A stretch of DNA of 64,000 nucleotides from a virus: positions 121,328-185,327 of IMG/VR virus record IMGVR_UViG_3300027987_000212, one strand, 5' to 3'. Positions 28,745 to 60,364 of the stretch are shown in pieces. The notes under the pieces are model-generated. The model had not been told where the DNA came from, searched no databases, and worked only from the letters and a program-made list of their open reading frames with translations. Position 1 is the first letter of the stretch; every line of letters begins with the position of its first letter. The translations under genes and the position numbers were made by a program.

Positions 28745-28781
28745 TCAATAAGAAGCTGCGCACAGGGATAAGTACCACGAG
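28745..28781 (+). promoter_or_regulatory. GATAAG-type promoter 1
   Basis: TCAA, 15 bases, AGGGATAAG, then TACCACGAG. This is the first copy, at the divergent junction between the virion arm and the accessory arm, 21 bases before the gene at 28802. Conserved bases, spacing and orientation match the other copies. Confidence 0.6.
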
Positions 28782-28801
28782 CAACCACTAGGACTAGAGG
28801 C

Positions 28802-29506
28802 ATGCAAAACCCCAACGCAACACTCATCATCGGCGACGTCACCCTCGTACAAGTAGAGGTACCCGAACGCCCCAATACTCGTGAGTGGCACTCACTGTTC
28901 GACACAGGCCCCCAAGTGAAGCTGGTCGAGCATCTGTCTGCCGTGCAGGGTGGTTGGGAAGCCGTAGTCCACCGCCCGGAAGACCCCAACCGGACGGTAG
29001 CCATGTTCGCCGGCTTGTACGAAGACCTACACCCGCCATTACTAGCCGCACTCAACGTAGGGTCAAAGACAGAGGAAGACCTCTCGAAGCGTGTGAAGCA
29101 AGTAATCAAAGCAGCCACCATGAAATGGACAGACAGCCCCACAGACGACCCTGCTGGCGGGCAGATGGGCGGGGCTCGCTATCTCAAGTCCTTCGAGCTG
29201 CCCATCTCCGCACTACCCACCGTGGTAACCGTAGAGCTGGACGACCCCATCATTGGACTGCGCTGTCGAGCCTGTCTTGCTCCCTACTACCTGACGCTAG
29301 AGAAAAGAAGCTTGCGCAGCAAGGATGGTATCCGCCAACTGACTGTGGGCGGCTGCAGCTTGTGCACCACATGCAACAAGTCCAAAGAATCAGCTACAAC
29401 GCTGCGCGCTCATGGCGTTTACCGAATGCCCGCACGTGTACGGGAGCACCTCATCGAAACAGTCAACCCAGTAGACGGGCCAGGAGTACTAAAACTGCCC
29501 AAGTAG
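28802..29506 (+). CDS. Hypothetical protein with C-terminal zinc ribbon
   Basis: A 234-residue protein and the first gene of the accessory arm. Residues 1-150 are mixed alpha/beta without a known motif. CRAC (about 156) and CSLCTTC (about 187) form a probable zinc ribbon, followed by a short basic end. The alternative frame on the same strand (from 28885) is arginine-rich and is a shadow. Function unknown. Binding to nucleic acid or protein through the ribbon is possible. Confidence 0.6.
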   Translation: MQNPNATLIIGDVTLVQVEVPERPNTREWHSLFDTGPQVKLVEHLSAVQGGWEAVVHRPEDPNRTVAMFAGLYEDLHPPLLAALNVGSKTEEDLSKRVKQVIKAATMKWTDSPTDDPAGGQMGGARYLKSFELPISALPTVVTVELDDPIIGLRCRACLAPYYLTLEKRSLRSKDGIRQLTVGGCSLCTTCNKSKESATTLRAHGVYRMPARVREHLIETVNPVDGPGVLKLPK

Positions 29507-29514
29507 GAGTAACT

Positions 29515-30471
29515 ATGCACAACGAAGAAAACAAAACCCCTGAGCAGGAAACCACCGCAGAAGAAGTCAAAGAGGTCACTCCGGCGGAAGTGACGTTGAC
29601 TGACAACGACGTCCCTGAAGACGCCAGCAGCACCATACCTAGCGGACCGCCCACCGATGCCACCGAAGTACTTGAGGCACCGATGCCCGAAGTGCCCGTC
29701 GGTGAATACCCAGACATCGTCGGACAAGGCGAGGACATCACCGTCATCGCAGATAACCCGCAACAAATGGTGCAAGCCCAACTCGACCTCATTCAAGCTT
29801 GCGACAGAAAGATAGCAGCAGCCAGGCAAGCACTTCAGGAACGTCAAGAAAACCTGGACGCAGCACTTCGGGGAAAGCTTCGTACCACCGTATGGCGAAG
29901 ACTCGTCAAAGAGGCAGAAGCCGCAGTCGTGTACTACGAGAAGATGAAGACTGCCTTCAGCCTAGGCTACTTCATGGTCCCCGACTTCCCCATCACCCTC
30001 ATCGCCATTCGTACCGACAACAAACCTGCTGCAAAACAAACACGCCTCGCTCACCGAGGACTGCAGGCCGAAGATGCGCTCAACCTACCCCGCGGCGAAG
30101 GACGCTACGTGCACCCAATCCCATCCGGCACTACCTACCAAGAGCGAACGTCACCCTCCACTGAACCGGCAAGATACACCCAGTACGTTACGACAACGGG
30201 TGACTACAAACCAGTAGACTTCCCAATGCGCTTGGTCAAACCTCGTATCGTCAACAACCTGACAGAAGCACTAGCCCGCAAAGTCTTCGATGAGGTAGGC
30301 ATCCTGCCTTCTTCAGTTGCTCCGGCTAGGCGTAGCCGAACTGGGCTCACCGCTGGCGCCTCAGCCAATCCAGACCCAATGGTCATTGGCCGCATCTTCC
30401 GCCAAGACCGCGGGCACCGCATCAGTGCCAGCTTCCTCATCACATGGTGGATTGACGCCAACACCCTATGA
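29515..30471 (+). CDS. Hypothetical protein, acidic N-terminus and coiled coil
   Basis: A 318-residue protein. The start at 29515 follows AGGAGTAAC. Residues 1-75 are acidic and disordered, 88-150 form a charged coiled coil (QAQLDLIQACDRKIAAARQA), and residues 150-318 look globular with a conserved-looking end (RIFRQDRGHRISASFL). It overlaps the acetyltransferase start by ATGA. No family recognised. Confidence 0.65.
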   Translation: MHNEENKTPEQETTAEEVKEVTPAEVTLTDNDVPEDASSTIPSGPPTDATEVLEAPMPEVPVGEYPDIVGQGEDITVIADNPQQMVQAQLDLIQACDRKIAAARQALQERQENLDAALRGKLRTTVWRRLVKEAEAAVVYYEKMKTAFSLGYFMVPDFPITLIAIRTDNKPAAKQTRLAHRGLQAEDALNLPRGEGRYVHPIPSGTTYQERTSPSTEPARYTQYVTTTGDYKPVDFPMRLVKPRIVNNLTEALARKVFDEVGILPSSVAPARRSRTGLTAGASANPDPMVIGRIFRQDRGHRISASFLITWWIDANTL

Positions 30472-30872
30472 AGCTCACAGACATCACGTCGCGCCCAGCG
30501 CATACTCGAGGGTCTGTTCTGGTCCAATCCCCCCGTGGAATTGTTACTGCTAGTGCTTCGGTCGTCGATGCAGACCCTGATAGTGACATCCCCTTCCTGC
30601 ATTGGTACGTGAATCGCGTACTGGTACAGGAAGGGTACAGGGGGCAGGGGTATGGTAGCGCTGCCGTCCAGCAGCTCTTGAAGGCTATCGAAAAAAGTAA
30701 CCAAGCATTCGAGGACATTCCCGTCATCGTTACCCCTGGCGGCTACAACAGCTCCCCTCAACGCCTGCACACCTTTTACACACGCCTCGGGTTTACTCTG
30801 TGGAAACCCCGCTGCCCAATTCTCATCTGGAGAGCTCATGAACCCACACAACACCTCTCCTGCGGAACCTGA
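30468..30872 (+). CDS. GNAT-family N-acetyltransferase
   Basis: A 134-residue protein. The segment VNRVLVQEGYRGQGYGSAAV (residues about 48-67) is the GNAT motif A, with RGQGYG as the acetyl-CoA pyrophosphate loop, and FYTRLGF near residue 104 is motif B. Length equals a single GNAT domain. The substrate cannot be predicted. It is coupled by ATGA to the previous gene and overlaps the next by 35 bases. Confidence 0.75.
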   Translation: MKLTDITSRPAHTRGSVLVQSPRGIVTASASVVDADPDSDIPFLHWYVNRVLVQEGYRGQGYGSAAVQQLLKAIEKSNQAFEDIPVIVTPGGYNSSPQRLHTFYTRLGFTLWKPRCPILIWRAHEPTQHLSCGT

Positions 30873-31656
30873 GTGGTCTAACGAAGACTTCCTGGACTAC
30901 GTACAGGAACACAGTAAGACCGAACGAGCACTATTCTCCTACAACCATGTACGTCGCCTAATACTACTAGCGGGCCTACCAAACAACGCCTGGTTCAACT
31001 CCATTGCAGCAACACCTGACAAGTTCATTAGCATCGATGCCTCCTCCGCTGCCAGCCTAATTAGCCATGCGGTAAAGCGCATGGCTTGGGTTAATACGGA
31101 GGGACCCCTACGCTACGATGCTGTACCTCAATTCCCTCAAGCACACTGGGGCGTGGATATCTCCTGGAGCTACCTGGAGGAGTACATCCACATTCAGTCC
31201 AACGCACACACCACCCAAGCCAGTTTGGACCTAGAACCAGACTTCCAACGCGCGCATGTTTGGACGTACGAGCAGCAGGTTGCCTACGTTGAATACGTAC
31301 TAAAAGGCGGCGAAGTTTCACGCACACTCACTTTCAACTGCCCTGGCTGGAACTCAGACTGGCGAGGACCCTACGTCATCATCGACGGTAAGCAACGCCT
31401 CGAAGCTGTACGCCGCTTCCTGCGCGGAGAGCTGCTCGCGTTTGGGCGCTACTTCAGCGAATTTACGGGCAGCATGCGCTTAACCGGCCCCAGTTTCCGG
31501 TGGAACGTGTGTGCCCTCGAGTCACGGGCAGAAGTCTTGCGCATGTACTTGAACATCAACGCAGGAGGAACGCCCCACACCCCCGTAGAGCTTAGCCGTG
31601 TACGGCAGTTGTTGGTCGAAGCAGATGAACAGCTCAACGACGACAACGTGCCCTGA
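30838..31656 (+). CDS. DUF262/ParB-like (GmrSD N-domain type) protein
   Basis: A 272-residue protein with GGAGAG before the start. Residues 131-190 have the DUF262 signature: EPDFQR (133-138), then VIIDGKQRLEAVRRFLRGEL (180-199), then a region ending MYLNINAGGTPHT. These proteins share a ParB/Srx-like fold and occur as the NTP-sensing half of GmrSD-type restriction enzymes and as stand-alone phage proteins. No HNH domain follows, so nuclease activity is not indicated. A regulatory or counter-defence role is possible. Confidence 0.65.
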   Translation: MNPHNTSPAEPEWSNEDFLDYVQEHSKTERALFSYNHVRRLILLAGLPNNAWFNSIAATPDKFISIDASSAASLISHAVKRMAWVNTEGPLRYDAVPQFPQAHWGVDISWSYLEEYIHIQSNAHTTQASLDLEPDFQRAHVWTYEQQVAYVEYVLKGGEVSRTLTFNCPGWNSDWRGPYVIIDGKQRLEAVRRFLRGELLAFGRYFSEFTGSMRLTGPSFRWNVCALESRAEVLRMYLNINAGGTPHTPVELSRVRQLLVEADEQLNDDNVP

Positions 31657-32206
31657 GTGTGGTGAAGAGGTAGACGAACTTGTCTACGTGGCGTACGAAG
31701 ACCTGCACATGTGTGAACAGTGCAGAGAGTATGGAGACCTCGACCAAGAATTCCGAAACGACCAGTTCGAAGAAGGCCTGCGAATAACCAGCGAGTACCA
31801 GGAGGTAGAAATGAGCGACTGCAAAATCACTAAGCAACTAGTATACACCGCTGAGCAGGGGGACGACACCCTACTGTTCATCACGCACAGCTATGGGGCC
31901 CTATCAGGTGCACCGCAGCACGTACAAGCCGTCGCAAAGACGGCTGGCGGAGACGTCATCATACTGAACCTGCACCCAAACACAAAGCCTAGTCCGACCG
32001 AAACAGTGTTGTACGAAGTCCACGTGCGCGTCTACACCGGCGAGTACGAAGAGTTCGCACACCGACACTATGCTAGCGATGAGTCAAGCAGCATCGAGAA
32101 AGCCCTGGAGTGGGCATTGACCGTTTACCAGCAGTGGCACACTGAGTACTACGAAGACGAGGTAGACGAAGAAGCTGAGGGCGAAGACGCCCCCTCATCC
32201 GTTTAG
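31625..32206 (+). CDS. Zinc-ribbon protein with possible internal start
   Basis: A 193-residue protein. Residues 8-35 hold CPECGEEVDELVY and HMCEQC, a zinc ribbon. At 31811, in the same frame, AGGAGGTAGAA precedes an ATG (MSDCKITK). This is one of the best ribosome sites in the region, so a shorter 131-residue product is likely in addition. The C-terminal part is mixed alpha/beta and ends in an acidic tail. It overlaps the DUF262 gene and is closed by the terminator at 32216. Confidence 0.6.
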   Translation: MNSSTTTTCPECGEEVDELVYVAYEDLHMCEQCREYGDLDQEFRNDQFEEGLRITSEYQEVEMSDCKITKQLVYTAEQGDDTLLFITHSYGALSGAPQHVQAVAKTAGGDVIILNLHPNTKPSPTETVLYEVHVRVYTGEYEEFAHRHYASDESSSIEKALEWALTVYQQWHTEYYEDEVDEEAEGEDAPSSV

Positions 32207-32215
32207 GACATTGCG

Positions 32216-32240
32216 AAGGCCGCACATCGTGGCCTTTTTT
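32216..32240 (+). terminator. Intrinsic terminator
   Basis: AAGGCCGC, loop, GTGGCCTT, followed by TTTT. It lies nine bases after the stop at 32206 and directly before promoter 2, so it separates two transcription units. Confidence 0.8.
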
Positions 32241-32258
32241 AGGGATAAGACTTACGAA
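32222..32258 (+). promoter_or_regulatory. GATAAG-type promoter 2
   Basis: GCAC, 15 bases, AGGGATAAG, then ACTTACGAA. The upstream element lies inside the terminator hairpin, so termination of the first unit and initiation of the next overlap physically. The gene at 32283 begins about 35 bases downstream. Confidence 0.55.
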
Positions 32259-32282
32259 CCCCAAGACCATTAGGTAACCACT

Positions 32283-33194
32283 GTGAACAACCGCCCCGAC
32301 CAGCAAACGAGCATCAAGGCCCCCCTGCTCCTACTCGAGCTACGACCACGTTACGAAGGAAGACGGACGTTCGTCTTCCTTGGAGTCCCGTTCATACTTC
32401 GAATGGACGTGGGCCCAGGCCCCCACATGAGCCTCGTCTCGGGCTACGTAGAAGAGGTATCGAATACGCCCGGACGGCAGTACGCCCTAAGGAACAATGA
32501 CAGTCAGCCATTCCTGCTGCAAGCGGCTTTGGATGCAGTCAACAACCCCACCGAGTGCACCTTCATCCCCCTGCTGTCTGTACTACTGCCAACCGTACTT
32601 GCCGCACACTTCGTGGATATGGCACGCCATGTCCTACACGACTTACCGCCACAGGCGAACTTATCTCCGAGCGACTACCGCCAGTTCGCCTCCAGCACGC
32701 ACTACCAAACAGGTGAGCAAGACTTGGTAGGCCTAGCTACACGTCTACTCACTACGGTTGCTCTGGGCAATCTACCTACCCTCCTTCGTCGACCCGACTT
32801 CGCATCCTGCTACGGCACCGTTCAACAAACTGTCGAACAAGACGAAGAACTACTCCACTTTTACTGCGAGCGAGTGAACGCCGCCACAGTACTCATCACA
32901 AGCAGTAGTACCCGGCAGTCCATGGTACTACTGCTAAATGAGGACGGCACTTACGGCGCGGGTACCCTCGACCTGCACCATGTGTCCGTACAAATCGACC
33001 TTGTAGCGAACAAGGCTCACGTAGACGTGTTCGCTCCGAATGACGCCAAAGTCATATGCACCGATGTCGTAGCAAGCACCCCCAACAACCCGGTCAGCCC
33101 GCTGCTGAGCTACTACCTCAAAACAGCGGCCCTCATCATGTTTGCAACACGAGAGACTGCGGCAAGTCAGGCACCTGCCAGCCCCCTGAACTGA
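32283..33194 (+). CDS. Hypothetical protein
   Basis: A 303-residue protein starting with GTG after AGGTAACC. It appears to have two domains: an N-terminal beta-rich part (LLLLELRPRYEGRRTFVFL) and a helical middle, then another beta part (STRQSMVLLLNEDGTYG). No enzyme motif or membrane segment. First gene of the unit driven by promoter 2. Confidence 0.6.
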   Translation: MNNRPDQQTSIKAPLLLLELRPRYEGRRTFVFLGVPFILRMDVGPGPHMSLVSGYVEEVSNTPGRQYALRNNDSQPFLLQAALDAVNNPTECTFIPLLSVLLPTVLAAHFVDMARHVLHDLPPQANLSPSDYRQFASSTHYQTGEQDLVGLATRLLTTVALGNLPTLLRRPDFASCYGTVQQTVEQDEELLHFYCERVNAATVLITSSSTRQSMVLLLNEDGTYGAGTLDLHHVSVQIDLVANKAHVDVFAPNDAKVICTDVVASTPNNPVSPLLSYYLKTAALIMFATRETAASQAPASPLN

Positions 33195-33200
33195 GGCAAC

Positions 33201-33725
33201 ATGCACCCACCAAAAATCACGTCTGACAAGTCTGGTCGCGTCGTATTCCATGTAGCAGGTGACCTAGTCATCGCCTATCCCAAAGAAGCCTGGGGAGCCA
33301 AGGGTGCCGCCTGGAACCACCTGGTAGAGCATCCGCCACCCATTCTCGCACGAACCCCCGGGGTCAGCAGCACCGATAACCCTTACCATGCCTGCCATGA
33401 TGACGAAGCCTACTGGGCATGGGCCGTACGCGACATCACTCGCGTACTCTACACGCGTTTCGGATGTGGGGGTCTCATCGACGGACTACGAAACTCCCTA
33501 CGCCTAGACGACCTACGCAAGGTAGCCGCTGCCATCGAGGCAGCAGTCAACAATGTCACACAGCAGCTAAAGGACCTGGAACTTGCACCACCTACGACCA
33601 ACGCGGCAACTCCGCAGACAACTGAGGCTGCTGCAGCATCGGCTACAAGCTCTGACGGGAATTCCAAAGAAGAAAATCCCAACGGTGACTCTGTCGATGC
33701 ACGAAACGCATCCGACGGTGGATAG
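33201..33725 (+). CDS. Hypothetical protein with Ala/Thr/Ser-rich tail
   Basis: A 174-residue protein. Residues 1-125 are globular (helical end LRLDDLRKVAAAIEAAVNNV), then a disordered acidic tail whose coding sequence overlaps the start of the HExxH gene by 29 bases. No family recognised. Confidence 0.6.
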   Translation: MHPPKITSDKSGRVVFHVAGDLVIAYPKEAWGAKGAAWNHLVEHPPPILARTPGVSSTDNPYHACHDDEAYWAWAVRDITRVLYTRFGCGGLIDGLRNSLRLDDLRKVAAAIEAAVNNVTQQLKDLELAPPTTNAATPQTTEAAAASATSSDGNSKEENPNGDSVDARNASDGG

Positions 33726-34119
33726 GTGCGAAGTACTCCTCCACGAACTGGCGCACATGCGGCTACTAAATCTGCACCCAGACGAAGAGCTGTGGGGGGT
33801 AATCGACACCTGTTTGAAGCGGCGTCCTCCCCTGTTTCAGGCTCTGCATGAAGTGCGCGCCATAGCCATCGAACTAGAGGTGGCAAAAAGGCTGGGGCTG
33901 GGCTTGAACTACTTCGGCGTTCTGTGGACAGGCGCACGCAACACCCCGCTCATCTGGGACAAGTGCCTGCACTCCGAGGCGCGGTTCCGCAAGTTGTACC
34001 GGCGCGCCCGCCGCACGCAAAAGGTACAACGGCTAGCTACTCAGCTTGTACAAGAAATCACGTCCACAGGACGCATAAACCTACCACCCACAAGATGGTC
34101 CTCCGGTCATCAAGGTTAG
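33697..34119 (+). CDS. HExxH putative metallopeptidase, copy 1
   Basis: A 140-residue protein. HELAH (residues 16-20) is the zinc-binding motif of gluzincin-type peptidases. About 48 residues later comes LHEVRAIAIELEVAKRLGLG, a helix with a candidate third ligand glutamate. The architecture matches the genes at 42075 and 51846. ATG at 33697 is chosen because GGTGA precedes it and the longer frame reads as Arg/Leu-rich noise. Possible targets are phage repressors or host proteins, as for ImmA/IrrE-like peptidases. This is inference. Confidence 0.55.
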   Translation: MHETHPTVDRCEVLLHELAHMRLLNLHPDEELWGVIDTCLKRRPPLFQALHEVRAIAIELEVAKRLGLGLNYFGVLWTGARNTPLIWDKCLHSEARFRKLYRRARRTQKVQRLATQLVQEITSTGRINLPPTRWSSGHQG

Positions 34120-34127
34120 GGGCATGT

Positions 34128-34325
34128 ATGCAAAAACCTAGAAACCAAACGTACACCTTCGAGGTACGACCTGGCACACGCTACATCAAACTCGGACCAC
34201 GCTGCAGAGCAACGTGCCACACATGCCAAAAAGAGATGCCCATCGAACTGCGCAACATGGGTAATGGAGACGTACGGGAACAACCAAACTGCCAAGAATG
34301 TCGTAAACGCGAGCCCGAAGAATGA
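34128..34325 (+). CDS. Small zinc-ribbon protein
   Basis: A 65-residue protein. CHTC and CQEC are spaced 24 residues apart, a complete zinc ribbon, with a basic N-terminal half. AGGGG precedes the ATG. The end overlaps the next start by ATGA. Probably binds nucleic acid or a protein partner. Confidence 0.6.
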   Translation: MQKPRNQTYTFEVRPGTRYIKLGPRCRATCHTCQKEMPIELRNMGNGDVREQPNCQECRKREPEE

Positions 34326-35017
34326 CTAGCCAACTCAAGCAAGTAGTGTTCACCGGACTCGACGAGAAGACAGACTTCCAGCGGTTGCGTGAGATGTACC
34401 AGCTGGACCCGCGCATGCGCTTCTCCGTGATGGTCAACGGTAAGAAGGTCGCCCAAAACGCTGGGCGGGCCAAAATCAGCATGTTGTACCCACCAAACCC
34501 CTACGGACTGCTGGCCAATAGCGGCCTGCCTCCGAGGGCGCTAGTTGCGCATCTACAAGGGAACGACGCCATAGACTTCGTGCAGATGCCGACTGCGTTC
34601 AAAAACGTCGTAAGGTACCTGTCCCGTATTCACATACAGCAGGAGCCGACCGTCCTCTCGGCAGGCCTCGCCGCACGAGCAGCCCGCCAACTGGGCATAG
34701 AAGTCAGCCTCCACACCAAGTGCAACCCCGTCCCTTGGTATGCTGGAGTCACCCTACTCTCCCTAAGCCTAGTCCCTACCAAACCCAAAGGGTGGGGCAC
34801 GCCCGACAGTCTGTACCACTCAACAGACCTACTCGGATACAGCGGAGGCATCACCCCAGACAACCTACCAAGCGTGCTCCCCGCCATCCAAGAAGCTAGG
34901 GGAACGGGTGCATTCTGGATTGAACTAGGCGAAGGCATTCGTGTGGGAGACTGCTTCGACGCCGATGAAGTAGAAGCAGCCATGGTCGCCATCAGAAACT
35001 GGGAGCGTGGAATATGA
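34322..35017 (+). CDS. TIM-barrel candidate, TrpF-like
   Basis: A 231-residue protein. The N-terminal strand and turn VVFTGLDEKTD, the middle RFSVMV strand, and near the C-terminus SGGITPDNLPSVLPAI followed by FWIELGEGIRV recall the phosphate-binding strands of phosphoribosylanthranilate isomerase-like barrels (GGL-x-P-x-NV, then VDVSSGVE). Size is right for one barrel. It is unlikely to make tryptophan alone. The sugar-phosphate substrate is unknown. Low-certainty fold assignment. Confidence 0.45.
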   Translation: MTSQLKQVVFTGLDEKTDFQRLREMYQLDPRMRFSVMVNGKKVAQNAGRAKISMLYPPNPYGLLANSGLPPRALVAHLQGNDAIDFVQMPTAFKNVVRYLSRIHIQQEPTVLSAGLAARAARQLGIEVSLHTKCNPVPWYAGVTLLSLSLVPTKPKGWGTPDSLYHSTDLLGYSGGITPDNLPSVLPAIQEARGTGAFWIELGEGIRVGDCFDADEVEAAMVAIRNWERGI

Positions 35018-35655: not shown

Positions 35656-35656
35656 C

Positions 35657-35694
35657 GCAAGGCAGCCCTCCTTTCGGGGATAAGACTGATGGAG
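35657..35694 (+). promoter_or_regulatory. GATAAG-type promoter 3
   Basis: GCAA, 15 bases, GGGGATAAG, then ACTGATGGAGAGAAC. One of the exact GCAA copies. It lies in the 64-base gap before the gene at 35720, whose ribosome site GGAGG follows. Confidence 0.65.
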
Positions 35695-35719
35695 AGAACA
35701 CCACCATCGGAGGGATACC

Positions 35720-36100: not shown

Positions 36101-36110
36101 CTCTTGCCCT

Positions 36111-36137: not shown

Positions 36138-36193
36138 GTTGCGTAGCCCTACCTGTTAGCGAGGTAACCTAGACCAACTTAGTTGTACAAACT

Positions 36194-40668: not shown

Positions 40669-40706
40669 ACAAGTCACCGCAAAAATGCGGGATAAGGCTA
40701 ATAGAG
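40669..40706 (+). promoter_or_regulatory. GATAAG-type promoter 4
   Basis: ACAA, 15 bases, CGGGATAAG, then GCTAATAGAGGAA. The downstream AGAGGA doubles as the ribosome site of the gene at 40715, so the leader would be very short. Confidence 0.6.
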
Positions 40707-45627: not shown

Positions 45628-46439
45628 GCACTATTGATGCGAATTACACCGAAGTCATCACCGTGCGAAACGGTAAGTGCGTCCCAACAGCTCGCTACAG
45701 AAATCGTACAGGGGTGGGTACCGCTCTGCTGCAAGCCTTGAGGACTAAGTACGGGGACCGTATCAAGGCACGCCCCGAAACAACGGACCTCGTGCTGTTA
45801 CTGCGCTTCTGCGCAGCAGACTTGGCAGACGTACTCCTCCCTGAGGAGGCCAACTTGTTGACCTTCTGTATGCCTCGAAGCCTCCTGGCGCTGAAGGATG
45901 TGCCCGTCTTCATCGAGTCGGTCAGACGCGCAGAAGCAACCATTCTGTGGTCGCTAACCAACTACTGGCCTGACATCGTGACGCATATCGAGACTACGCT
46001 GCGCATGGACAACGCTGGAGAAGTACAGGCCTTCGGCCTGTACATTCCGCATATGCACGATGGGCAGCTACTGGAGAATCCTTGGGAGGTACCCATCAGA
46101 GACAACGAAGGACTCGTACAAATGAGGCCATACGATATTGGCCGCGACCATGCCCACCTGTTCGAGCCGATGCTTCCGCTAAAGCCCGCAGACGACCCCG
46201 CAGCCCCTACCAAGGAAACTACGTTCACCACTCTCACCATAGACAAGGTAGAGCACGTCTCCCTGGGACTACAGGAGCCGCCCGTATCCTGGGCTACGCA
46301 ACGTTGCTACCTCCTGCAGAGCACCTCTCCCGACTCCACTGCGCTGGACAGCTGTCACATACCAACCCACATCTTTGGGCGCAAGCTACTTCCACCAGGT
46401 ACACGTATCAAGTTAACAATCATGCCCGATGAGGGATAA
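45624..46439 (+). CDS. Hypothetical protein
   Basis: A 271-residue protein coupled by ATGA to the HAD gene. The N-terminal half is helical, and the C-terminal half strand-rich (TTFTTLTIDKVEHVSLGL). The 3' end overlaps promoter 5. No family recognised. Confidence 0.6.
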   Translation: MSTIDANYTEVITVRNGKCVPTARYRNRTGVGTALLQALRTKYGDRIKARPETTDLVLLLRFCAADLADVLLPEEANLLTFCMPRSLLALKDVPVFIESVRRAEATILWSLTNYWPDIVTHIETTLRMDNAGEVQAFGLYIPHMHDGQLLENPWEVPIRDNEGLVQMRPYDIGRDHAHLFEPMLPLKPADDPAAPTKETTFTTLTIDKVEHVSLGLQEPPVSWATQRCYLLQSTSPDSTALDSCHIPTHIFGRKLLPPGTRIKLTIMPDEG

Positions 46440-46450
46440 GTACTGTAGAG
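46413..46450 (+). promoter_or_regulatory. GATAAG-type promoter 5
   Basis: TTAA, 15 bases, AGGGATAAG, then TACTGTAGAGGACAC. It lies over the stop codon of the upstream gene, and AGAGGA is also the ribosome site of the Nudix gene at 46456. Confidence 0.6.
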
Positions 46451-50140: not shown

Positions 50141-50178
50141 GCAAATGAGGTAGTAATCCGGAGATAACAGTAATGAAG
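50141..50178 (+). promoter_or_regulatory. GATAAG-type promoter 6
   Basis: GCAA, 15 bases, GGAGATAAC, then AGTAATGAAGGAG. It begins six bases after the preceding terminator. The gene at 50188 follows with AAGGAG as ribosome site. Confidence 0.6.
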
Positions 50179-50660: not shown

Positions 50661-50688
50661 AGAAGGCCCCGCTAGGGGCCTTCTTTTT
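50661..50688 (+). terminator. Strong intrinsic terminator
   Basis: AGAAGGCCCC, loop GCTA, GGGGCCTTCT, then TTTT. It starts at the base after the stop at 50660. Confidence 0.92.
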
Positions 50689-50717
50689 GCCCAGTAACCA
50701 GAGACAAGTACTACGCA
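50681..50717 (+). promoter_or_regulatory. Degenerate GATAAG-type promoter
   Basis: AGAGACAAG then TACTACGCAG, with GACAA in place of GATAA and no GCAA-like element at the expected distance. The downstream TACTACG part is conserved, so it may be a weakened copy driving 50723. Confidence 0.35.
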
Positions 50718-52785: not shown

Positions 52786-53186
52786 GCCTGAACCTAAAGG
52801 AGCTACGCTTCGAAGCGTCCATGAGCAGCAGCTTCAAACCACCGCCCTCCTTGTGGCGCGGTGTCAACGGAGACTTCAAGCGATACGCCCCACAGTTCGC
52901 GTCAAATGACCTACCTGTCGATGGAGCGACTGCGTGCTACCTGGGTCCCCGACTCATCGGAGTATTCCGCTACTGCGAAGCCGGCGGCGGATTAAGTCTC
53001 TTCGACGCAGGCATGTACATCCTCAAACCGTACCGACGCAACGGTATCGGGTTGAAGCTGCTCATCACCACGATGGACACCATCAAACCCATCAGCATCG
53101 CGCTGACCCCAGTTAACCCAGCGGGCACTGCTCTAGCGGAGAAGTTCGCCAAGCTATACCCACGCCAAACCAACATCCTGAAGTAG
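52782..53186 (+). CDS. GNAT-family acetyltransferase, tandem copy 2
   Basis: A 134-residue protein, paralogue of the preceding gene. Shared features are DFKRYA (about 31-36), IGVFRY, MYILKPYRRNGIGLKLL with RRNGIG as acetyl-CoA loop, and a C-terminal YPR motif. The tandem pair shows gene duplication followed by divergence. The substrate of neither is known. Confidence 0.7.
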   Translation: MSLNLKELRFEASMSSSFKPPPSLWRGVNGDFKRYAPQFASNDLPVDGATACYLGPRLIGVFRYCEAGGGLSLFDAGMYILKPYRRNGIGLKLLITTMDTIKPISIALTPVNPAGTALAEKFAKLYPRQTNILK

Positions 53187-53226
53187 CAAAAACGTCCTAA
53201 CTTCGGAGATAAGACTACTGAGAGAG
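53186..53226 (+). promoter_or_regulatory. GATAAG-type promoter 8
   Basis: GCAA, 15 bases, GGAGATAAG, then ACTACTGAGAGAGACC. GCAA overlaps the upstream stop codon. This copy is followed not by a gene but by a long structured leader. Confidence 0.65.
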
Positions 53227-53844: not shown

Positions 53845-54104
53845 CTCCCCGCCTACTCGAGCTTCAAGTGGAACTACGTGCCGCAGGAGCGGCACTACCA
53901 GAGGAGCCAGTAGTAGCAAGATTCCGTGAACCCCTGCCCACCGACAGTCCCTTCATCCGCGCGGTGCTCACACTTGCCAAAGAAGAAAGCACCATGACTG
54001 ACTTCCACCTTGGCTACCTCGACGGCCGTCGAGAACTTCAGAACTGGAAGCTCAGCCCGCTATACGAGCGAGGCTACCGGGCAGGACGCACGCAGAGTAA
54101 GTAG
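53841..54104 (+). CDS. Small hypothetical protein
   Basis: An 87-residue protein. Its second half contains FHLGYLDGRRELQNW and YERGYRAGR, two GY-x-x-GR-like helices typical of small phage proteins that repeat this pattern. Last gene before a terminator. Confidence 0.6.
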   Translation: MTPRLLELQVELRAAGAALPEEPVVARFREPLPTDSPFIRAVLTLAKEESTMTDFHLGYLDGRRELQNWKLSPLYERGYRAGRTQSK

Positions 54105-54105
54105 G

Positions 54106-54133
54106 AGAAAGGCCCCGAAGGGCCTTTCTTTTT
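54106..54133 (+). terminator. Intrinsic terminator
   Basis: GAAAGGCCC, loop CGAA, GGGCCTTTC, then TTTTT. It closes the plus-strand unit before the convergent minus-strand genes. Confidence 0.9.
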
Positions 54134-54144
54134 GCTGCCTGTTC

Positions 54145-54675
54145 CTACGCTTCTCGTACGCGTGCAAGCGCAGCGATGGCCGTACCCAGAGCTGCAATCA
54201 CGTCGTTCTGACGCTTGAACGGAGGGTCCTCCAACAACTCCGTATAGGGGTCGTCGACAGGAGTCGCGCAGCCAGCATTTTGCCGCATCTCGATGAGGTC
54301 ACGCCGATTACGCACCTCGCGCTGCAACTGTTCCTCGAGTAGCCCCAACACATGCTGAATGGGCGGCATCCCCCGCTTCTCTGGGCATGCGGGGTCGATG
54401 GAACCTACGCGCCCGAGACGACAGTACTCTCGAAGCAGTCCTCCGAGTGCCTCATCCTTGGTACCACCCTCTACAAACACTTCTCGGAATGGGAGTGAGG
54501 CAACGAACACCACCGTGTCCCCCTCACCCACATTAGTGGTTACCTTGGGCGCCCAACTACGCACGTTGCACTCCCAGTTCTCGCGTGCGCGTTTCTCCAA
54601 CTCTGCGTTGATAATGGCCATCGCCGCAGACTCTCCGTACCGCACACCTTGCTTCGCACTACCTTGCTGTTCCAT
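54145..54675 (-). CDS. Hypothetical protein next to sigma factor
   Basis: A 176-residue protein from the ATG at 54675 with AGAGGAACC upstream. It contains a strand-rich segment (VVFVASLPFREVFVEGG) and Cys residues in DPACPEKRG and NAGCATP, then a helical end. It lies downstream of the sigma factor on the same strand, 70 bases away, and may be cotranscribed. An anti-sigma or co-regulator role is possible but unsupported by motif. Confidence 0.55.
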   Translation of the reverse strand: MEQQGSAKQGVRYGESAAMAIINAELEKRARENWECNVRSWAPKVTTNVGEGDTVVFVASLPFREVFVEGGTKDEALGGLLREYCRLGRVGSIDPACPEKRGMPPIQHVLGLLEEQLQREVRNRRDLIEMRQNAGCATPVDDPYTELLEDPPFKRQNDVIAALGTAIAALARVREA

Positions 54676-54745
54676 GGTTCCTCTTTCTGCGCCAGTAACC
54701 CGTAGGCCTGGCACGAGCAGAAGAGTACAAGTCGGGCAGCGCCGG

Positions 54746-55288
54746 TCAAGGCTCTTCGCACAACAAGTCGCGCAAGCTATGTACCGCCAACGAGTACAGC
54801 TGTGATACCCGAGTATCCGTTACACCGAAGACCCTCGCCAAGTCCCTGTTTGTACGTCCATTGAGCCGCCCGACGACTACCTCACGAAGTCGGTCTGGCA
54901 AACGTGCAGCAGCGCGCACAAGGTCCTCCTGAAGCAACCCCTCAAGCACGTCGTACTCCGGGGCGGCCATCCCCTCGAAGACCTCATCCGGGTCAAACAC
55001 GGACCGTTGCGGCATATAGCCTATCCGCCTAGCCCGCCGGGGCGCCCAGTCTTGTGCCCGCAGCTCATCCAGTACGGCCCCCGCTACACGTGTGGCACAG
55101 TAGTTTCGGAAGAACTCATGCTCAGGTTGGCGTATCACCGCCTGCCAAGCACCGAACCGCCCAGCACTGAGCAAGTCTTCCTTAGGGGCGTACCGCCCAG
55201 TCCTGCAGTGGATACGCTCCACAATCTTGTCGACCATGGGCAGCATCTCCTCGAACAGTTTCATCTGTTCTGCTCGAGACAACTCCAT
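54746..55288 (-). CDS. FliA-like RNA polymerase sigma factor
   Basis: A 180-residue sigma-70-family protein of the sigma-28 (FliA/WhiG) type. Region 2: DLLSAGRFGAWQAV (38-51) and GAVLDELRAQDWAPRRAR (70-87), the latter closely matching the GA-(I/V)-xDELR-x-x-DW-x-PR block of FliA. Region 4: LPDRLREVVVGRLNG and ARVFGVTDTRVSQLYSLAVH (130-170), the -35-binding HTH. Region 3 is short. It should redirect host core polymerase to phage promoters, and the GATAAG-type elements in this arm are the obvious candidates. It lies on the minus strand with no such element upstream, so it probably starts from another promoter. Confidence 0.88.
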   Translation of the reverse strand: MELSRAEQMKLFEEMLPMVDKIVERIHCRTGRYAPKEDLLSAGRFGAWQAVIRQPEHEFFRNYCATRVAGAVLDELRAQDWAPRRARRIGYMPQRSVFDPDEVFEGMAAPEYDVLEGLLQEDLVRAAARLPDRLREVVVGRLNGRTNRDLARVFGVTDTRVSQLYSLAVHSLRDLLCEEP

Positions 55289-55368
55289 ACCAACTAACGT
55301 AGCCTGCTTCGTGCGACATCGAAACCCTACTAGTTCCTACGCGGTTCTAGCCTGAGCTTCATCCTCGC

Positions 55369-55701
55369 TTACCCGTCCATCTCATCCGGCCAGCACCAGT
55401 AATTACCGTGCGCCGGCTGCGACGCTCGATGAACTACCGAAGATTCGCGGATGAGCTGTTGACCGTAGGTGTCCTTTCGCTTCACGTCCCCTGAGACCCA
55501 GACAAGGTTGCAGCATGCCTCGATAACAGCGGTGTGTATCGGCGGGTCTTGAGCTGCCAAGACCTCAACACTCCGTTGCTGAGCCGAGATGTGTGCCTCC
55601 CTGTCATTGCCACAGTGCCACTGAGTAACCAGTGCGGGACGCCGAATCCCATGCGGGTCGACGAAGATGACAACTACGCCTTCTGAGTATGCCTTTTCCA
55701 T
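55369..55701 (-). CDS. Hypothetical protein
   Basis: A 110-residue protein on the same strand as the sigma factor, 80 bases upstream of it. An N-terminal strand pair (GVVVIFVDPHGIRRPALV) and Trp-rich C-terminus (GNYWCWPDEMDG). No family recognised. It could share a transcript with the sigma gene. Confidence 0.6.
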   Translation of the reverse strand: MEKAYSEGVVVIFVDPHGIRRPALVTQWHCGNDREAHISAQQRSVEVLAAQDPPIHTAVIEACCNLVWVSGDVKRKDTYGQQLIRESSVVHRASQPAHGNYWCWPDEMDG

Positions 55702-55770
55702 TCTGACTCACTTCCTGCGGCTTCGGTGCCGCACGAAGCAGGCTCCTCCATGATAGCACCAATCCTCGAC

Positions 55771-55808
55771 GCAGGAAAGGCGCACTCTACGGGATAAGAA
55801 TGACGAAG
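55771..55808 (+). promoter_or_regulatory. GATAAG-type promoter 9
   Basis: GCAG, 15 bases, CGGGATAAG, then AATGACGAAGGAG. It heads the long plus-strand unit after the minus-strand sigma cluster. The first gene starts at 55819. Confidence 0.6.
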
Positions 55809-55818
55809 GAGTAAGACC

Positions 55819-56397
55819 TTGACCAAGCCCACCCCCACTGAAACCCACCCACTACTGCTTGAACTACGCAGTCTCGTAAACTCCAATGAAGTACCCACAC
55901 TCTACTTACTGGAGCAACTCACTTACCCTGACAACCTGCCGCACATCATCTCCTCATCAGGCATACGCAAAGCAGCTATCATAGCGCTCAGCATGAGTGA
56001 GGCGCCCGGTGACAGGTACCCTAAACTATTCCCCCCAAGAACGTGGGCGCCCCGTGCCAACGCGTACACCTTAGGCGTACTGCGTGCGTACAACGACCAA
56101 CTGAGCGACAATGCGGGCTACATCCGTACCGATAAGAACACCCTCTGGTGCCCACAACACGCCTTAGCAGATGGTTGCCGACAACTACTCAGACAGCACG
56201 GTAAGCTGGCAGAGAACAGTGCTCCGCACCTAGTTGAGTTCCCGCCCAGCTTTCGGCGAGACGAGCTAAACATGGAACTACGCCGGGGACAACTAGCGCC
56301 AGACATTGCACTACTCGTACACTGCCAAATAACCGACCAACCGGCACAGCACTTGTACTACTCCGTGTGGGGTGTACTTGAAGATGGGGTACTATGA
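55819..56397 (+). CDS. Hypothetical protein, TTG start
   Basis: A 192-residue protein. The frame opens with TTG after AAGGAGTAAGACC. No ATG or GTG fits better. It is helical in the first third and contains a WCPQHALADGCRQLLRQH segment with two Cys. No family recognised. Confidence 0.6.
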   Translation: MTKPTPTETHPLLLELRSLVNSNEVPTLYLLEQLTYPDNLPHIISSSGIRKAAIIALSMSEAPGDRYPKLFPPRTWAPRANAYTLGVLRAYNDQLSDNAGYIRTDKNTLWCPQHALADGCRQLLRQHGKLAENSAPHLVEFPPSFRRDELNMELRRGQLAPDIALLVHCQITDQPAQHLYYSVWGVLEDGVL

Positions 56398-56999
56398 AAG
56401 GTTACGCCGCAACCGTCGACTTCAGTCCAACGCGCCAAAAGCTTTGGAGCACCGCAACAACTTTGGTCCAGAGTGTCCCGGAGGAGTGGGAGGCTCGTTG
56501 TCACGAGTTAACCCGCGCCATCGCGGAAGTGCTACCAAGCGCTGTACCCGAGTTACTTACCGTACAAGACGGCATGCTCGGCCCGCAGGAGCACAGTTGG
56601 CTATGGGTAGGCCTACCGCCACCGAAGATAGCCTGCAGACACATCGGATGCGACTGGACGGCAGTGTACCGCACAGGCAAGTGGGACGAGCGCCTGAACA
56701 ACTACCCAGCTTACTGCGACTGGCACATCGGGTTGTACCGTTCGGAGGACCACTACTCACCCATCCTGAACGAGGGGGCTACCATCCTAGACACGTACTT
56801 CCCCGGAGCGCTCCCTCCGGTCGTGCTGCTCTCACAACATCGAGGGTTACACCTAGCTCGCGCTGCGTATTGCCCAGGACCAGACAGGGTCGACATCAAC
56901 CCTACCATACTCAGCAAAATGGTGTTCCTCTTTCGCGCGGTACTAACCGCTAACCCCGACCTCACATTCCAGCCACGTGAAAGGCCATTACGTCGATGA
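56394..56999 (+). CDS. Hypothetical protein with HSW and D/G-P motifs
   Basis: A 201-residue protein. EHSWLWVGLPPPKI is followed 60 residues later by ATILDTYFPGALPPVVLLS. A His-Trp strand followed by an ILD ... G-x-PP strand recalls transglutaminase-like or related papain folds in which His and Asp are catalytic, but a nucleophilic Cys is not obvious. Cys/His residues at CRHIGCDW and CDWHI may bind metal. ATGA coupling on both sides. Confidence 0.5.
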   Translation: MKGYAATVDFSPTRQKLWSTATTLVQSVPEEWEARCHELTRAIAEVLPSAVPELLTVQDGMLGPQEHSWLWVGLPPPKIACRHIGCDWTAVYRTGKWDERLNNYPAYCDWHIGLYRSEDHYSPILNEGATILDTYFPGALPPVVLLSQHRGLHLARAAYCPGPDRVDINPTILSKMVFLFRAVLTANPDLTFQPRERPLRR

Positions 57000-57358
57000 A
57001 CAACTCTACCAAGCTCTTCGACGGGGACTACGCTGCAACTCGTCAAGCAGTCGCAGCGCACATACTAGCGCACATGGACGAAACCTCCCCACAAGGATTG
57101 TACGCAGTCAGTACCGAGTGCAGCGCGATGATTAAGCTGTTCTCTCGACATACCACCCTCGGACGAGCCCTACGAGAACTAGTCACACCTGAAGAAGTCG
57201 CTGAGTTCGATGCCGCCCTCCAAACCATCCTAACCTTTGCCGACAGCAAGGCACGTGCAATCCCACTACGCCTACTCGGCAAAATCGAAGAGGCGAGACA
57301 ACTCGAGAACCAAGCTGACGCAGCTTACGAAACACTGCCAACTGAGTGGCGCTGGTAA
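56996..57358 (+). CDS. Hypothetical helical protein
   Basis: A 120-residue, all-helical protein (TRQAVAAHILAHMDETSPQ and later EFDAALQTILTFADSKARA). No zinc or enzyme motif. It ends 15 bases before the next gene. Confidence 0.6.
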   Translation: MNNSTKLFDGDYAATRQAVAAHILAHMDETSPQGLYAVSTECSAMIKLFSRHTTLGRALRELVTPEEVAEFDAALQTILTFADSKARAIPLRLLGKIEEARQLENQADAAYETLPTEWRW

Positions 57359-57373
57359 CCAAGGAGCAACACA

Positions 57374-58177
57374 ATGCAATGCAAGTTCTGCAACAACAAG
57401 TTGGAAGAGGGGGTAGACCCGCGAGGCTGGGGGACGCTGGCGCTCTCCATCGTAGGGGGGAATGACGTCGTAGGGTCAATCTGCCCCACCTGTCTGAGCA
57501 TCGGACGGATAGAGGCGATGCTCGCCGACACAGCCGAGGAGCCCAAGAATACCTCCTCAGACTTTCGGGACGGCGTAGCCCACGCCACGCACAAACTCGA
57601 GAAGATGCTAGCAGCTACGAATCTCCCGAAGTCCTTCATTATGCCGGTACCCCCGCTATTCCTCTCCCCACCTGACATGTGGTCGCGCACAACTGGCGCA
57701 CTGTTGGAGGAGCTCTCGGAGGACGAGGTACGCGACATTGAGGCGGTCGTAGAGATGTGCAACAAAGTAGCCCGAGGCTACTACGAACCCATCATCGAAC
57801 AGCTCTACCTCGACTTCGTTGCTCTCTACACACAACACAACAATCCGCGCATCTCTTTGACCGACGCCTCCCCCGAGAGCCCACTCGGCAAAGCCCTGAA
57901 GGAGCACCAAGATGGTGTCACAGGCGTCGTCAAAGACATCCACACGACCTTACGCCAGCTAGAACAGTGCGTGGCCCGTCTCGAGGGGAGGTATTCCCCC
58001 AGCGACGCCATCTCGTGGCACGAAGACTTTCCCCCACATTGGGCCTGCTACATGGACCTGCTCGCCGTGACTTACCCAGATGCCATGAAGGCCATGCAAC
58101 GTCGTCCAGGCAGACTGACCATGACGTTTACTCCTACCGGCCCAATCCCACCACAACGAATCGAGTACGCACCATGA
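57374..58177 (+). CDS. Zinc-ribbon hypothetical protein
   Basis: A 267-residue protein. CKFCNNKL at residues 3-10 and CPTCLSIG at about 37-44 form an N-terminal zinc ribbon. The remainder is helical with one coiled-coil segment near residues 180-205. Coupled by ATGA to the 500-residue gene. Confidence 0.6.
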   Translation: MQCKFCNNKLEEGVDPRGWGTLALSIVGGNDVVGSICPTCLSIGRIEAMLADTAEEPKNTSSDFRDGVAHATHKLEKMLAATNLPKSFIMPVPPLFLSPPDMWSRTTGALLEELSEDEVRDIEAVVEMCNKVARGYYEPIIEQLYLDFVALYTQHNNPRISLTDASPESPLGKALKEHQDGVTGVVKDIHTTLRQLEQCVARLEGRYSPSDAISWHEDFPPHWACYMDLLAVTYPDAMKAMQRRPGRLTMTFTPTGPIPPQRIEYAP

Positions 58178-59676
58178 CTACTGCACATGCCTGCTACTGC
58201 AAAAAACCCCACTGTACTGCACCGCGCTCCAAAGCATGCCTGAACCGGGCCATCGAGACATTCCTCACTAACCTCGTCGAAGTGAGCATGCAGCCACTGC
58301 CCGAAGAAAGCGTGGAGCAGGAGACTCCTGGGGCACCAGATACAACTGAGGGTAACTTCAGCGTACAAGTCACCTCCGGCAAAGTACCCGATAGCTCTGA
58401 GGTAACTACCACCATCAGGATAGCTTGGTGCCCTTACTACAAGCAAGGGCCAATAGCGATGTTGGTAGGTACCCCGCCTAACGAGGAACTCTTCCACGAA
58501 GTACTCGCAGAGCGAGCCAGACTACGCGAAGAGGTAGCTAGGCTCAACCGCACACACGACGAGTGGTACCCGCAACTGGTAGGCGCACTCGGGTTTAACC
58601 CGCACAGCACACAACACATCCTCGAAACCATCGTAAACCACGCGGTGCAAGCTCAAGAAGCTTGGAAAGAGGTAACCAGTACTACGGGCATGTACTACGA
58701 ACGGGTAACGTCACCTGAGCAACTGCCTCAATCTATCGTAGTTCTCGACTACCCAGACCCACTCGTGCCATGGGTTGCCTGTCAGTTCTGTAAGAAACTA
58801 TATCCCCATCATCATGTGCGCAGAGTACCGAGACCGGAGCACTGCCCCACGTGCCACTCCCACGACCCAGCCCTTCATCCAGCGATGCAGCATGGCGGCG
58901 AGGTACAGCCGTGTTCCAATACTTGGCATCAGTACACTTCCCCGCTACGGATGCTACAAGCGCAAGCGGCAACGCACACGAGAGTAGAGACAGACACAGA
59001 GCTGCTCCTAACTAAGGTGGGTAAACTCGAGGCAGACGCTGAACGCATCGCTACGGCACTCGGAGCAGCAATAGTCACCCCCAATGGGGTAGCGATTGCC
59101 GACGTGGAAGACCAGCTACGCCTCATCAATCTCCTGAAGAGGTATGTGCCGCGCGACCACGCCGCCCTGCGTCGTTACTTCAATTGCACCGGTGGCATCA
59201 CCGGGCGAACGCCTTCTACACAGCCCAACCTCAGCAACACCCCTGCTACCGAGAACGCTGGCACCAACCTCCCGCTATCCACGCAAGAACGCGAAGAGCT
59301 CGAAGACTGGCGAGCAGTCTTCTGTCTGGAGTTTGCCCCAGAGCACCACACCGCAGGCCCCTTCTCTACCTGGCCACACCTACTGGCAGCCAACATCCAC
59401 GCCTTACGAGAAGAGGTGAAGACAGCACGCGAGAATCGCGTCTCCCCACACCCTTTACTCGAGCTAGAGCACTGGCGTGCCGTGTTCCGCCTCGAGTATG
59501 CCGTCGAAAGTGACTACCTGGAATCCTACAACCAATGGCCACGACAGCTGCAACGCTATGCAAACCAAGCACGCGAAACGATGGAAAAGATGCGGGCAGA
59601 GCAGCATCGCCTGCAGGAGTACGCAGCTCAAGCACGCGCAGAACTGGAGAACATGCGGACTGGAGACAAAACATGA
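58174..59676 (+). CDS. Large Cys-rich protein with duplicated WRAVF motif
   Basis: A 500-residue protein. CYCKKPHCTAP at the N-terminus and CQFCKKLY/HCPTCHSH near residues 205-230 are zinc-binding patterns. Coiled coils occur at about 108-125 and 295-320. The C-terminal third has two copies of a motif, LEDWRAVFCLEFA and LEHWRAVFRLEYA, about 60 residues apart, each followed by a W-P-x-x-L helix. The start is the ATG at 58174. The longer upstream frame is a shadow. Function unknown. Confidence 0.6.
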   Translation: MTTAHACYCKKPHCTAPRSKACLNRAIETFLTNLVEVSMQPLPEESVEQETPGAPDTTEGNFSVQVTSGKVPDSSEVTTTIRIAWCPYYKQGPIAMLVGTPPNEELFHEVLAERARLREEVARLNRTHDEWYPQLVGALGFNPHSTQHILETIVNHAVQAQEAWKEVTSTTGMYYERVTSPEQLPQSIVVLDYPDPLVPWVACQFCKKLYPHHHVRRVPRPEHCPTCHSHDPALHPAMQHGGEVQPCSNTWHQYTSPLRMLQAQAATHTRVETDTELLLTKVGKLEADAERIATALGAAIVTPNGVAIADVEDQLRLINLLKRYVPRDHAALRRYFNCTGGITGRTPSTQPNLSNTPATENAGTNLPLSTQEREELEDWRAVFCLEFAPEHHTAGPFSTWPHLLAANIHALREEVKTARENRVSPHPLLELEHWRAVFRLEYAVESDYLESYNQWPRQLQRYANQARETMEKMRAEQHRLQEYAAQARAELENMRTGDKT

Positions 59677-59927
59677 AACGCATCGGCTGGTGGCTGCTCA
59701 CCTATAGCGTTCCGCTCATGACCCTGTTGCTGGGCGGCACACTAGCGCTAGTTGCTCGGCGGGATTGGCTCGAGCACAACCCAGACCTCGCTGCCATCAA
59801 GTGCCTGGGGGTACTCATATTACTCGCACACGGATACATCGGCTACCACATCGTGCGACGGCACAAGCAACGCATGGACGAGCTCAGAGCAATGGAGGAA
59901 AGATGGTACGAACACGGAACAGACTGA
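59673..59927 (+). CDS. Two-span small membrane protein
   Basis: An 84-residue protein with hydrophobic helices at about 6-27 and 42-60, then a charged cytoplasmic tail (RRHKQRMDELRAMEERW). Size and topology suit a class II holin, but the location in the accessory arm and the absence of a lysin next to it leave this open. It is followed by a second two-span protein. Confidence 0.6.
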   Translation: MKRIGWWLLTYSVPLMTLLLGGTLALVARRDWLEHNPDLAAIKCLGVLILLAHGYIGYHIVRRHKQRMDELRAMEERWYEHGTD

Positions 59928-60187
59928 GTTGGCTCTACTTCTTCCCGGTGCTGTCCTTCTTCCTCAGCGCTGTATTTGCTGCCGTAGCCTACCGGTACTA
60001 CCAAGAAGGGAGGTGTCTTTTGGTGGCGGTCAACAGCCTCGCCAGCGTATCTCTCCTATTCTTCGTCATAAGCTTTCGCTGGTCCATTCGACGACTCATC
60101 GCCGTTAACCGAGCATACCAAAAACAGGTCACTGACCTAGAAGGGCGCCCACATGAGGATGATACTGATTACCGAGAGTCGCCTTGA
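59903..60187 (+). CDS. Two-span small membrane protein
   Basis: A 94-residue protein with GAGGAAAG immediately before the ATG. Membrane helices at about 10-30 and 40-57 (LSWLYFFPVLSFFLSAVF, VAVNSLASVSLLFFVISF), then a charged helix. It is probably translated together with the preceding membrane protein, and the two could form a complex. Confidence 0.6.
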   Translation: MVRTRNRLSWLYFFPVLSFFLSAVFAAVAYRYYQEGRCLLVAVNSLASVSLLFFVISFRWSIRRLIAVNRAYQKQVTDLEGRPHEDDTDYRESP

Positions 60188-60326
60188 CGAGTTGTTCGAC
60201 GCAGCTCTGGCCACCATCGCCGAGAGACTCAATGGGCACGCGCCTACCAAAGACCCAAACGGTACCGTGGTCTACTACGTACGCAACCTTCAGAAGGCAG
60301 TGAAGGACGGGCCACTCGGTACTTAG
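60153..60326 (+). CDS. Small 57-residue protein
   Basis: A short frame with credible coding sequence, MRMILITESRLDELFDAALA and a basic end (YYVRNLQKAVKDG). It overlaps the previous gene by 35 bases and ends just before promoter 10, filling what would otherwise be a gap. No family recognised. Confidence 0.5.
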   Translation: MRMILITESRLDELFDAALATIAERLNGHAPTKDPNGTVVYYVRNLQKAVKDGPLGT

Positions 60327-60364
60327 TGCAGTCCATCAGGATAACGGGGATAAGTACTACGAAG
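60327..60364 (+). promoter_or_regulatory. GATAAG-type promoter 10
   Basis: TGCA (GCAG with one base less), then GGGGATAAG and TACTACGAAG. The downstream part is the best match to the consensus. It precedes the small gene at 60386 and the GNAT fusion. Confidence 0.6.

Follow-up and report, generated by a model that had tools for sequence, protein, structure and literature searches.

A conserved class of predicted bipartite promoters in large tailed phages that encode a fused RNA polymerase and a divergent sigma-70-family factor

Introduction

Which RNA polymerase, guided by which specificity factor, would read a repeated GATAA element that lies between the genes of a large phage? The window analysed here, a stretch of 64,000 nucleotides (bases 121328-185327) from a 185,327-b viral record (G000) with a 144-b terminal repeat, raises this question: nine such elements lie on its plus strand, and it also contains a gene for a FliA-like sigma factor. 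A preliminary description of the window took the elements for a dedicated phage promoter class, heading gene clusters and read by that sigma factor. All nine sites were found where it had placed them, and the 4-mers 15 bases upstream match those it had listed.

Phage sigma factors such as T4 gp55 and SPO1 gp28 and gp33-34 redirect the host core polymerase to phage promoters. According to a review, jumbo phages that encode an RNA polymerase recognize promoters in a way unlike that of cellular enzymes, and phages with clear sigma homologs are usually without a polymerase (PMC7598289); a study of phage AR9 called recognition by beta/beta'-like chains alone unprecedented (PMC5312081). Here we describe a polymerase, a sigma-70-family factor and sharp bipartite promoters that are conserved together in an uncharacterized phage family and in cultured isolates, and that bear on the way in which giant-phage virion polymerases locate early promoters.

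Results

The nine sites are predicted members of a genome-wide promoter class

We read the whole G000 record stretch by stretch and trained a position weight matrix on the nine cores, from p-4 to p+17, where p is the G of GATAA. A bare search for GGRGATAAG with one mismatch is not significant alone (19 sites found, 15 expected). The full-core matrix finds 28 sites in G000 at a threshold where about one is expected, 22 of them on the plus strand, and at a score of 16 there are 20+3 sites against 0.0 expected. About 24 sites in the 185,327-b phage look genuine; they are spread genome-wide and not confined to the window, with two good minus-strand sites at genome positions 83469 and 92502. Upstream of the core, a -35 element (GCAAgWA) emerges at p-22 to p-16, in columns outside those used to train the matrix. 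Under the simple models from which our P-values come, its informative columns (p-22 to p-17) give P = 1e-4, 2.5e-3, 6e-4, 3e-7 and 1.6e-7, and GCAA itself occurs six times at p-22 and at most once at any other offset.

Our own, approximate gene calls leave 13.5% of the genome uncovered, and 23 of the 26 -10 elements fall in this part (P = 1.6e-15); 21 of the 26 are on the plus strand. The motif is thus nearly always intergenic and strongly strand-biased, and these two counts refute the possibility, raised in the preliminary description, that it is equally frequent within genes or on both strands. A Shine-Dalgarno sequence and a start follow within 80 bases at 15 of 26 sites in G000 and at 24 of 26 in the relative G024, as compared to 13% of random positions. 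As judged from their sequence and placement, the sites are promoters of a genome-wide class, which we call class A (Table 1). The earlier proposal of a dedicated phage promoter class heading gene clusters is therefore upheld, with the refinement that the clusters are non-virion ones, while its second half, reading by the FliA-like sigma, is not supported, for reasons given below. The accompanying statement that several sites directly follow terminators shrinks to two of the nine (32244 and 50163), where a clear hairpin and T-run are present.

Table 1. Features of the window, in window coordinates. The +1 given for the first site is placed by the conserved YR step at p+11/p+12.
Feature	Position	Strand	Remarks
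Class A promoter	28745..28779	+	-35 TCAATAA, -10 AGGGATAAG, inferred +1 ~28779
Class A promoter	32222..32256	+	-35 GCACATC, -10 AGGGATAAG; -35 overlaps terminator hairpin
Class A promoter	35657..35691	+	-35 GCAAGGC, -10 CGGGGATAAG
Class A promoter	40669..40703	+	-35 ACAAGTC, -10 GCGGGATAAG
Class A promoter	46413..46447	+	-35 TTAACAA, -10 GAGGGATAAG; overlaps end of preceding gene
Class A promoter	50141..50175	+	-35 GCAAATG, -10 CGGAGATAAC; preceded by strong terminator hairpin (z -3.7)
Possible weak class A site	50681..50715	+	GAGACAAGTACTACGCAG, score 15.0; before 406-aa gene; absent from the preliminary description
Class A promoter	53186..53220	+	-35 GCAAAAA, -10 CGGAGATAAG
Class A promoter	55771..55805	+	-35 GCAGGAA, -10 ACGGGATAAG
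Class A promoter	60327..60361	+	-35 TGCAGTC (out of register by one base), -10 CGGGGATAAG
FliA-like sigma, 180 aa	54746..55288	-	regions 2 and 4, without region 3; accessory in the phage family
Function-unassigned protein, 176 aa	54145..54675	-	adjoins the FliA-like sigma

Class A has ordinary sigma-70-family spacing

The layout of class A is GCAA-N15-NGGGATAAG-N6-R(+1), followed by a short Shine-Dalgarno leader. The consensus comprises a -35 of GCAAaW, a -10 of (G)GNATAAG, six further bases and a purine start, and a YR step is conserved at p+11/p+12 across 250 sites pooled from ten genomes. This step would correspond to -1/+1, which places the predicted start point 6 bases after ATAAG. If p+12 is taken as +1, the -10 hexamer NATAAG falls at -12 to -7 with G at -14 and -13, GCAA falls at -34 to -31, and the spacer between the -35 and -10 hexamers is 16 bases, which is ordinary sigma-70-family geometry. 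The 15-base spacing emphasized in the preliminary description does match that of sigma-28 promoters; it does not point to FliA specifically, because the general sigma-70-family geometry fits it equally. In several relatives the leader is most often 13-15 bases long, and a class A mRNA would begin with or near its own Shine-Dalgarno sequence.

Class A sites are frequently arranged back to back with virion operons that run the other way (genome 22912-22967, 32334-32407 and 107691-107740; window 28712-28767), and back-to-back early and late promoters have likewise been reported for AR9.

Class A is conserved in a family of uncharacterized phages

Searches with the capsid and other conserved proteins recovered some two dozen more large contigs of the same family, and phage records contained no near DNA match to G000. 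The G000 family consists of uncharacterized tailed phages of ~170-195 kb, and the viral records compared are metagenomic. One of them, G001 (195,580 b, with a 100-b terminal repeat), is syntenic with G000. Class A is present in G000, G001, G008, G009, G010, G011, G012, G014, G018, G024 and G021. Across the 250 sites from ten genomes, the relatives share an identical -35/-10 spacing, the same -35 and the same downstream part; the G001 sites were first picked by a matrix that included the -35, those of the other relatives by the core alone. In G025, which has the polymerase and a distant form of the sigma B described below, class A was not found by motif scan or word enrichment. In the intergenic regions of a more distant relative, G016, very strong enrichment is seen for TTAGTGATC and TGATCCCAG (up to 23 copies), which look like a different repeated element.

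A fused RNA polymerase and a divergent sigma factor accompany class A

Outside the window, G000 encodes a fused beta-beta' RNA polymerase (genome 16406-22912, minus strand; 2168 aa) that carries NADFDGD and the domains Rpb2_6 (6.7e-59) and Rpb1_2 (8.4e-26). Its ortholog in G001 (140307-146696, minus strand) is a single chain of 2129 aa, and polymerase matches occur in 15 of 15 genomes compared. A further gene outside the window (genome 91694-92476, minus strand; 260 aa) matches Pfam Sigma70_r3 at 7.8e-11. We call its product sigma B, a label of our own with no relation to Bacillus SigB meant. When 13 orthologs are combined in a profile, positions 78-246 of its 250 match SigA structures at 2.5e-18, and regions 2.2-2.4, 3 and 4 are alignable to known sigma factors; by these sequence profiles, which settle its family, sigma B is a divergent sigma-70-family factor. 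It was found in 23 of 28 genomes and in all 15 with the polymerase except G021, from which it is missing; the contig ends in that region, and the neighbours of sigma B are missing too. A scan of viral contigs with the sigma B profile returned only a known relative.

Every one of the ten class A genomes examined (G000, G001, G008, G009, G010, G011, G012, G014, G018 and G024) has a class A site at the head of its sigma B operon, at an upstream distance of either 10-26 bases or 1.5-2.1 kb. Seven family members tested for sigma-70 consensus sites have about 1.6- to threefold fewer of them than expected; in G000 the count is 19 against an expectation of 53.7.

Cultured isolates carry diverged forms of class A

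The nearest isolates are Salmonella phage Arash and the Vibrio phages D69, D148 and D181. For Arash, identity is 27-33% in the terminase, capsid, sigma B and polymerase; in the Vibrio phages the polymerase is 31% identical over 92%, and the sigma B ortholog is 44% identical to that of Arash. Unlike in the G000 family, the polymerase of Arash and D69 is split between two genes and sigma B lies in a virion operon; a second annotated sigma factor is also present.

In Arash and D69, where polymerase and sigma B have diverged, the motif has diverged as well. The Arash form is GGTATAAG-N6-G, with 39 sites of the form GGTATAAGtAAngTG, 37 of which are on the non-virion strand, opposite to most virion genes. 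GGTATAAG is also the top intergenic word of this phage (27 of 31 copies are intergenic), and sigma-70-like sites are not depleted there. The D69 form is tCAAt-N13-TTGTTATAAG, which retains CAA at the -35, and the motif TGTTATAAG / TTGTTATAAGTAATAT is on the non-virion strand at 19 of 20 sites.

Mass spectrometry of Arash virions detected the beta chain gp206 (3516 spectra), the beta' chain gp216 (1210 spectra) and gp10, which is the ortholog of sigma B (467 spectra from 24 unique peptides); the second sigma factor, gp196, is absent from the virion protein list (PMC10585845). Its authors warn that enzymes of this kind could have been carried over from infected cells, and the preparation also contained many non-virion enzymes (PMC10585845). 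Virion packaging is published for Arash alone, in a paper that does not mention promoters (PMC10585845).

The phage polymerase with sigma B is a candidate reader of class A

We give about even odds (a probability of roughly 0.5) to the reading that class A sites are early/middle promoters of the phage polymerase with sigma B, probably delivered by the virion. The fused beta-beta' polymerase would be the reader, with sigma B as its specificity subunit; by analogy with Arash, both would probably travel in the virion and enter the cell together with the DNA, and class A would drive the non-virion (host-takeover and replication-type) operons. From the sequence, we infer both this mode of reading and its timing: class A is most likely early/middle because it heads non-virion operons, and the system would reinforce itself because its own sigma B operon lies behind a class A promoter. 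Four lines of evidence speak for the proposal, namely the co-conservation of its parts, the strand and context of the sites, the depletion of host-type sigma-70 consensus sites in the members examined and the Arash virion data. Against it, a class A-headed sigma B operon also fits a regulatory cascade, and in Arash and D69 sigma B lies in a virion operon instead. Moreover, polymerase, sigma B and class A all belong to the core of the family, so that their co-occurrence does not tell sigma B apart from other candidates, whether core or host factors. The failure to find class A in G025, despite its polymerase and distant sigma B, and the lack of sigma-70 site depletion in Arash also weigh against the proposal.

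Such a cascade is the main rival, and we consider it rather unlikely but compatible with the data. It holds that a reader present from the outset, either a host sigma or the virion polymerase working with some other factor, acts on class A, that this leads to sigma B, and that sigma B then directs late transcription from TANNNT sites before virion operons, which resemble extended -10 elements. The class A site before the sigma B operon, seen in all ten genomes examined, fits this order of events, as does the fact that the sigma B profile is closest to SigA-type factors. In addition, the heads of virion operons, including that of the polymerase gene, carry another short-leader motif across relatives (GGTATACT, TGnTAGAAT or TACGCT). 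However, this weak, late-like motif might just as well be an extended -10 for host sigma-70, and the sigma B genes of Arash and D69, being in a virion operon, do not lie behind a class A-type promoter.

The TANNNT motif was picked out by eye and across orthologs; an expectation-maximization motif finder run on the minus-strand regions returned only low-complexity or Shine-Dalgarno-like motifs. Its forms GGTAYRCT and TGnTAGAAT lie 13-26 bases before virion-operon start codons (genome 22926, 32357 and 76118 (-)) and at orthologous places, often giving nearly leaderless mRNAs, and may represent a second, late promoter class.

Reading of class A by the host polymerase with one of its own alternative sigmas, of the sigma-28 or SigB/SigF kind, is less likely than reading by the phage polymerase with sigma B, and we regard it as quite improbable. 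The sigma-70-family -35/-10 architecture would suit a host factor, and the -10 GGGATAAG mixes features of sigma-28 (GATAA) and SigB/SigF (GGG) promoters, yet we know of no host sigma consensus that class A matches. Canonical sigma-28 sites are at chance, the same core and fixed geometry recur in phages of unlike genomes, Salmonella and Vibrio phages among them, and these phages carry a polymerase and sigma of their own. A host search by capsid gave one phage contig, L244 (JAKPDW010000082.1), whose capsid is 70% identical and which is binned into a Deltaproteobacteria MAG, the only host clue and too weak to name a host.

The FliA-like sigma factor is an accessory gene

The preliminary description had the FliA-like sigma read class A, and the proposal that it binds the host (or phage) core polymerase and reads class A as a dedicated regulon now appears very unlikely. 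The protein is a genuine member of the sigma-70 family: it matches Pfam Sigma70_r2 at 1.3e-8, FliA proteins are its best PDB matches and TIGR02479 (FliA/WhiG) is its top model. Its region 2 is thus of the FliA type, as had been claimed, but profile searches did not find region 3, its TIGR02479 score of 76.8 bits is below the 189.6 cut-off, and the gene is on the minus strand. The -35/-10 spacing and ATAA core of class A do resemble sigma-28 promoters, and sigma and motif are both present in G000 and in the syntenic G001, which has the one close counterpart of the protein. However, eight relatives without a FliA-like sigma keep the same promoters (G008, G010, G011, G012, G014, G018, G024 and G021). 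Three of these records have terminal repeats (G010, 123 b; G011, 127 b; G018, 127 b) and so look complete, which makes incomplete records an unlikely reason for the absence of a FliA-like gene. The FliA-like sigma is therefore rejected as a necessary reader.

The promoters themselves also depart from those of sigma-28 (FliA/WhiG) regulons. Both have a 15-base gap from the 4-mer to the 8-mer, and both have GATAA at the core; in contrast, the -35 is TAAA in sigma-28 promoters and GCAA in class A, and GATAA is preceded by CC in the former and GG in the latter, with G at p-2 in 246 of 250 class A sites where sigma-28 has C. Canonical TAAA-N15-GCCGATAA sites with up to two mismatches number 5 in G000 against 4.75 expected, and are near or below chance in five other genomes, both with and without a FliA-like sigma. 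No class A sites were found in fragments of unrelated phages that have FliA-like sigmas.

Within the family, the FliA-like sigma is an accessory gene of few members. Among 26 related large contigs, only G009 and G010 have a sigma region 2 above the curated cut-off, and the G010 protein is RpoH/RpoS-like, not FliA-like. In all three phages with a FliA-like sigma (G000, G001 and G009), the same protein is encoded directly downstream (in G001 at 9964-10605 and in G009 at about 127900-128485, both on the plus strand); G011 has this protein without the sigma. Searches of PHROGs, Pfam and NCBIfam gave nothing for it, and it is a candidate partner or co-factor, or else an antagonist or anti-sigma.

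Least probable of all is that the element is a repressor-binding site or a translation leader motif: its 3' half (GRAGGA) overlaps the Shine-Dalgarno at many sites, but the -35 is fixed at 22 bases, the 3' half persists at genome 5202 and 181676, where another Shine-Dalgarno follows farther downstream, the ATAAG core, 6-base gap and purine start fit promoter geometry, and the strand bias tracks gene direction.

Discussion

The preferred reading, the phage polymerase with sigma B, invites comparison with the early promoters of the phiKZ/AR9-type virion polymerases. There too, a phage polymerase of the multisubunit type is associated with one strongly conserved element before presumed early genes (PMC5312081, PMC7598289), and in both systems the element is divergent from the virion operons. 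The AR9 element, AAATATATATTAT-6N-G, lies 6 bases before its G start (PMC5312081, PMC7598289), the same distance as predicted for class A. In contrast, class A combines a -35 and a -10 in sigma-70 geometry, and its GG-NATAAG core is not simply AT-rich; the G000 family also differs in its fused beta-beta' chain and its recognizable sigma-70-family factor. The T4 and SPO1 cascades differ in another respect, as they use the host core polymerase and the G000 family has its own. The mReC Caudovirales, with their deep-branching multisubunit RNA polymerase, likewise have beta and beta' with NADFDG, a likeness drawn from their description, in a paper that does not mention a sigma factor or promoters (PMC7481178).

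A more far-reaching form of the proposal would have these phages bring a complete sigma-dependent machine of their own, in which a single-chain polymerase and a co-packaged sigma-70-type factor are injected and act on private bipartite early promoters; we put this forward tentatively, at somewhat less than even odds. If true, this would be, as far as we know, the first phage virion polymerase known to use a recognizable sigma-70-family factor. If phages do have a holoenzyme built on the cellular plan, this would inform how viral and cellular polymerases are related. How a virion polymerase of a giant phage locates its early promoters becomes directly testable in Salmonella phage Arash.

FliA-like sigmas, seemingly without region 3, are also present in three unrelated IMG/VR contigs of 69-70% GC (L019, L021 and L022), and phages may have acquired short FliA-derived sigmas repeatedly.
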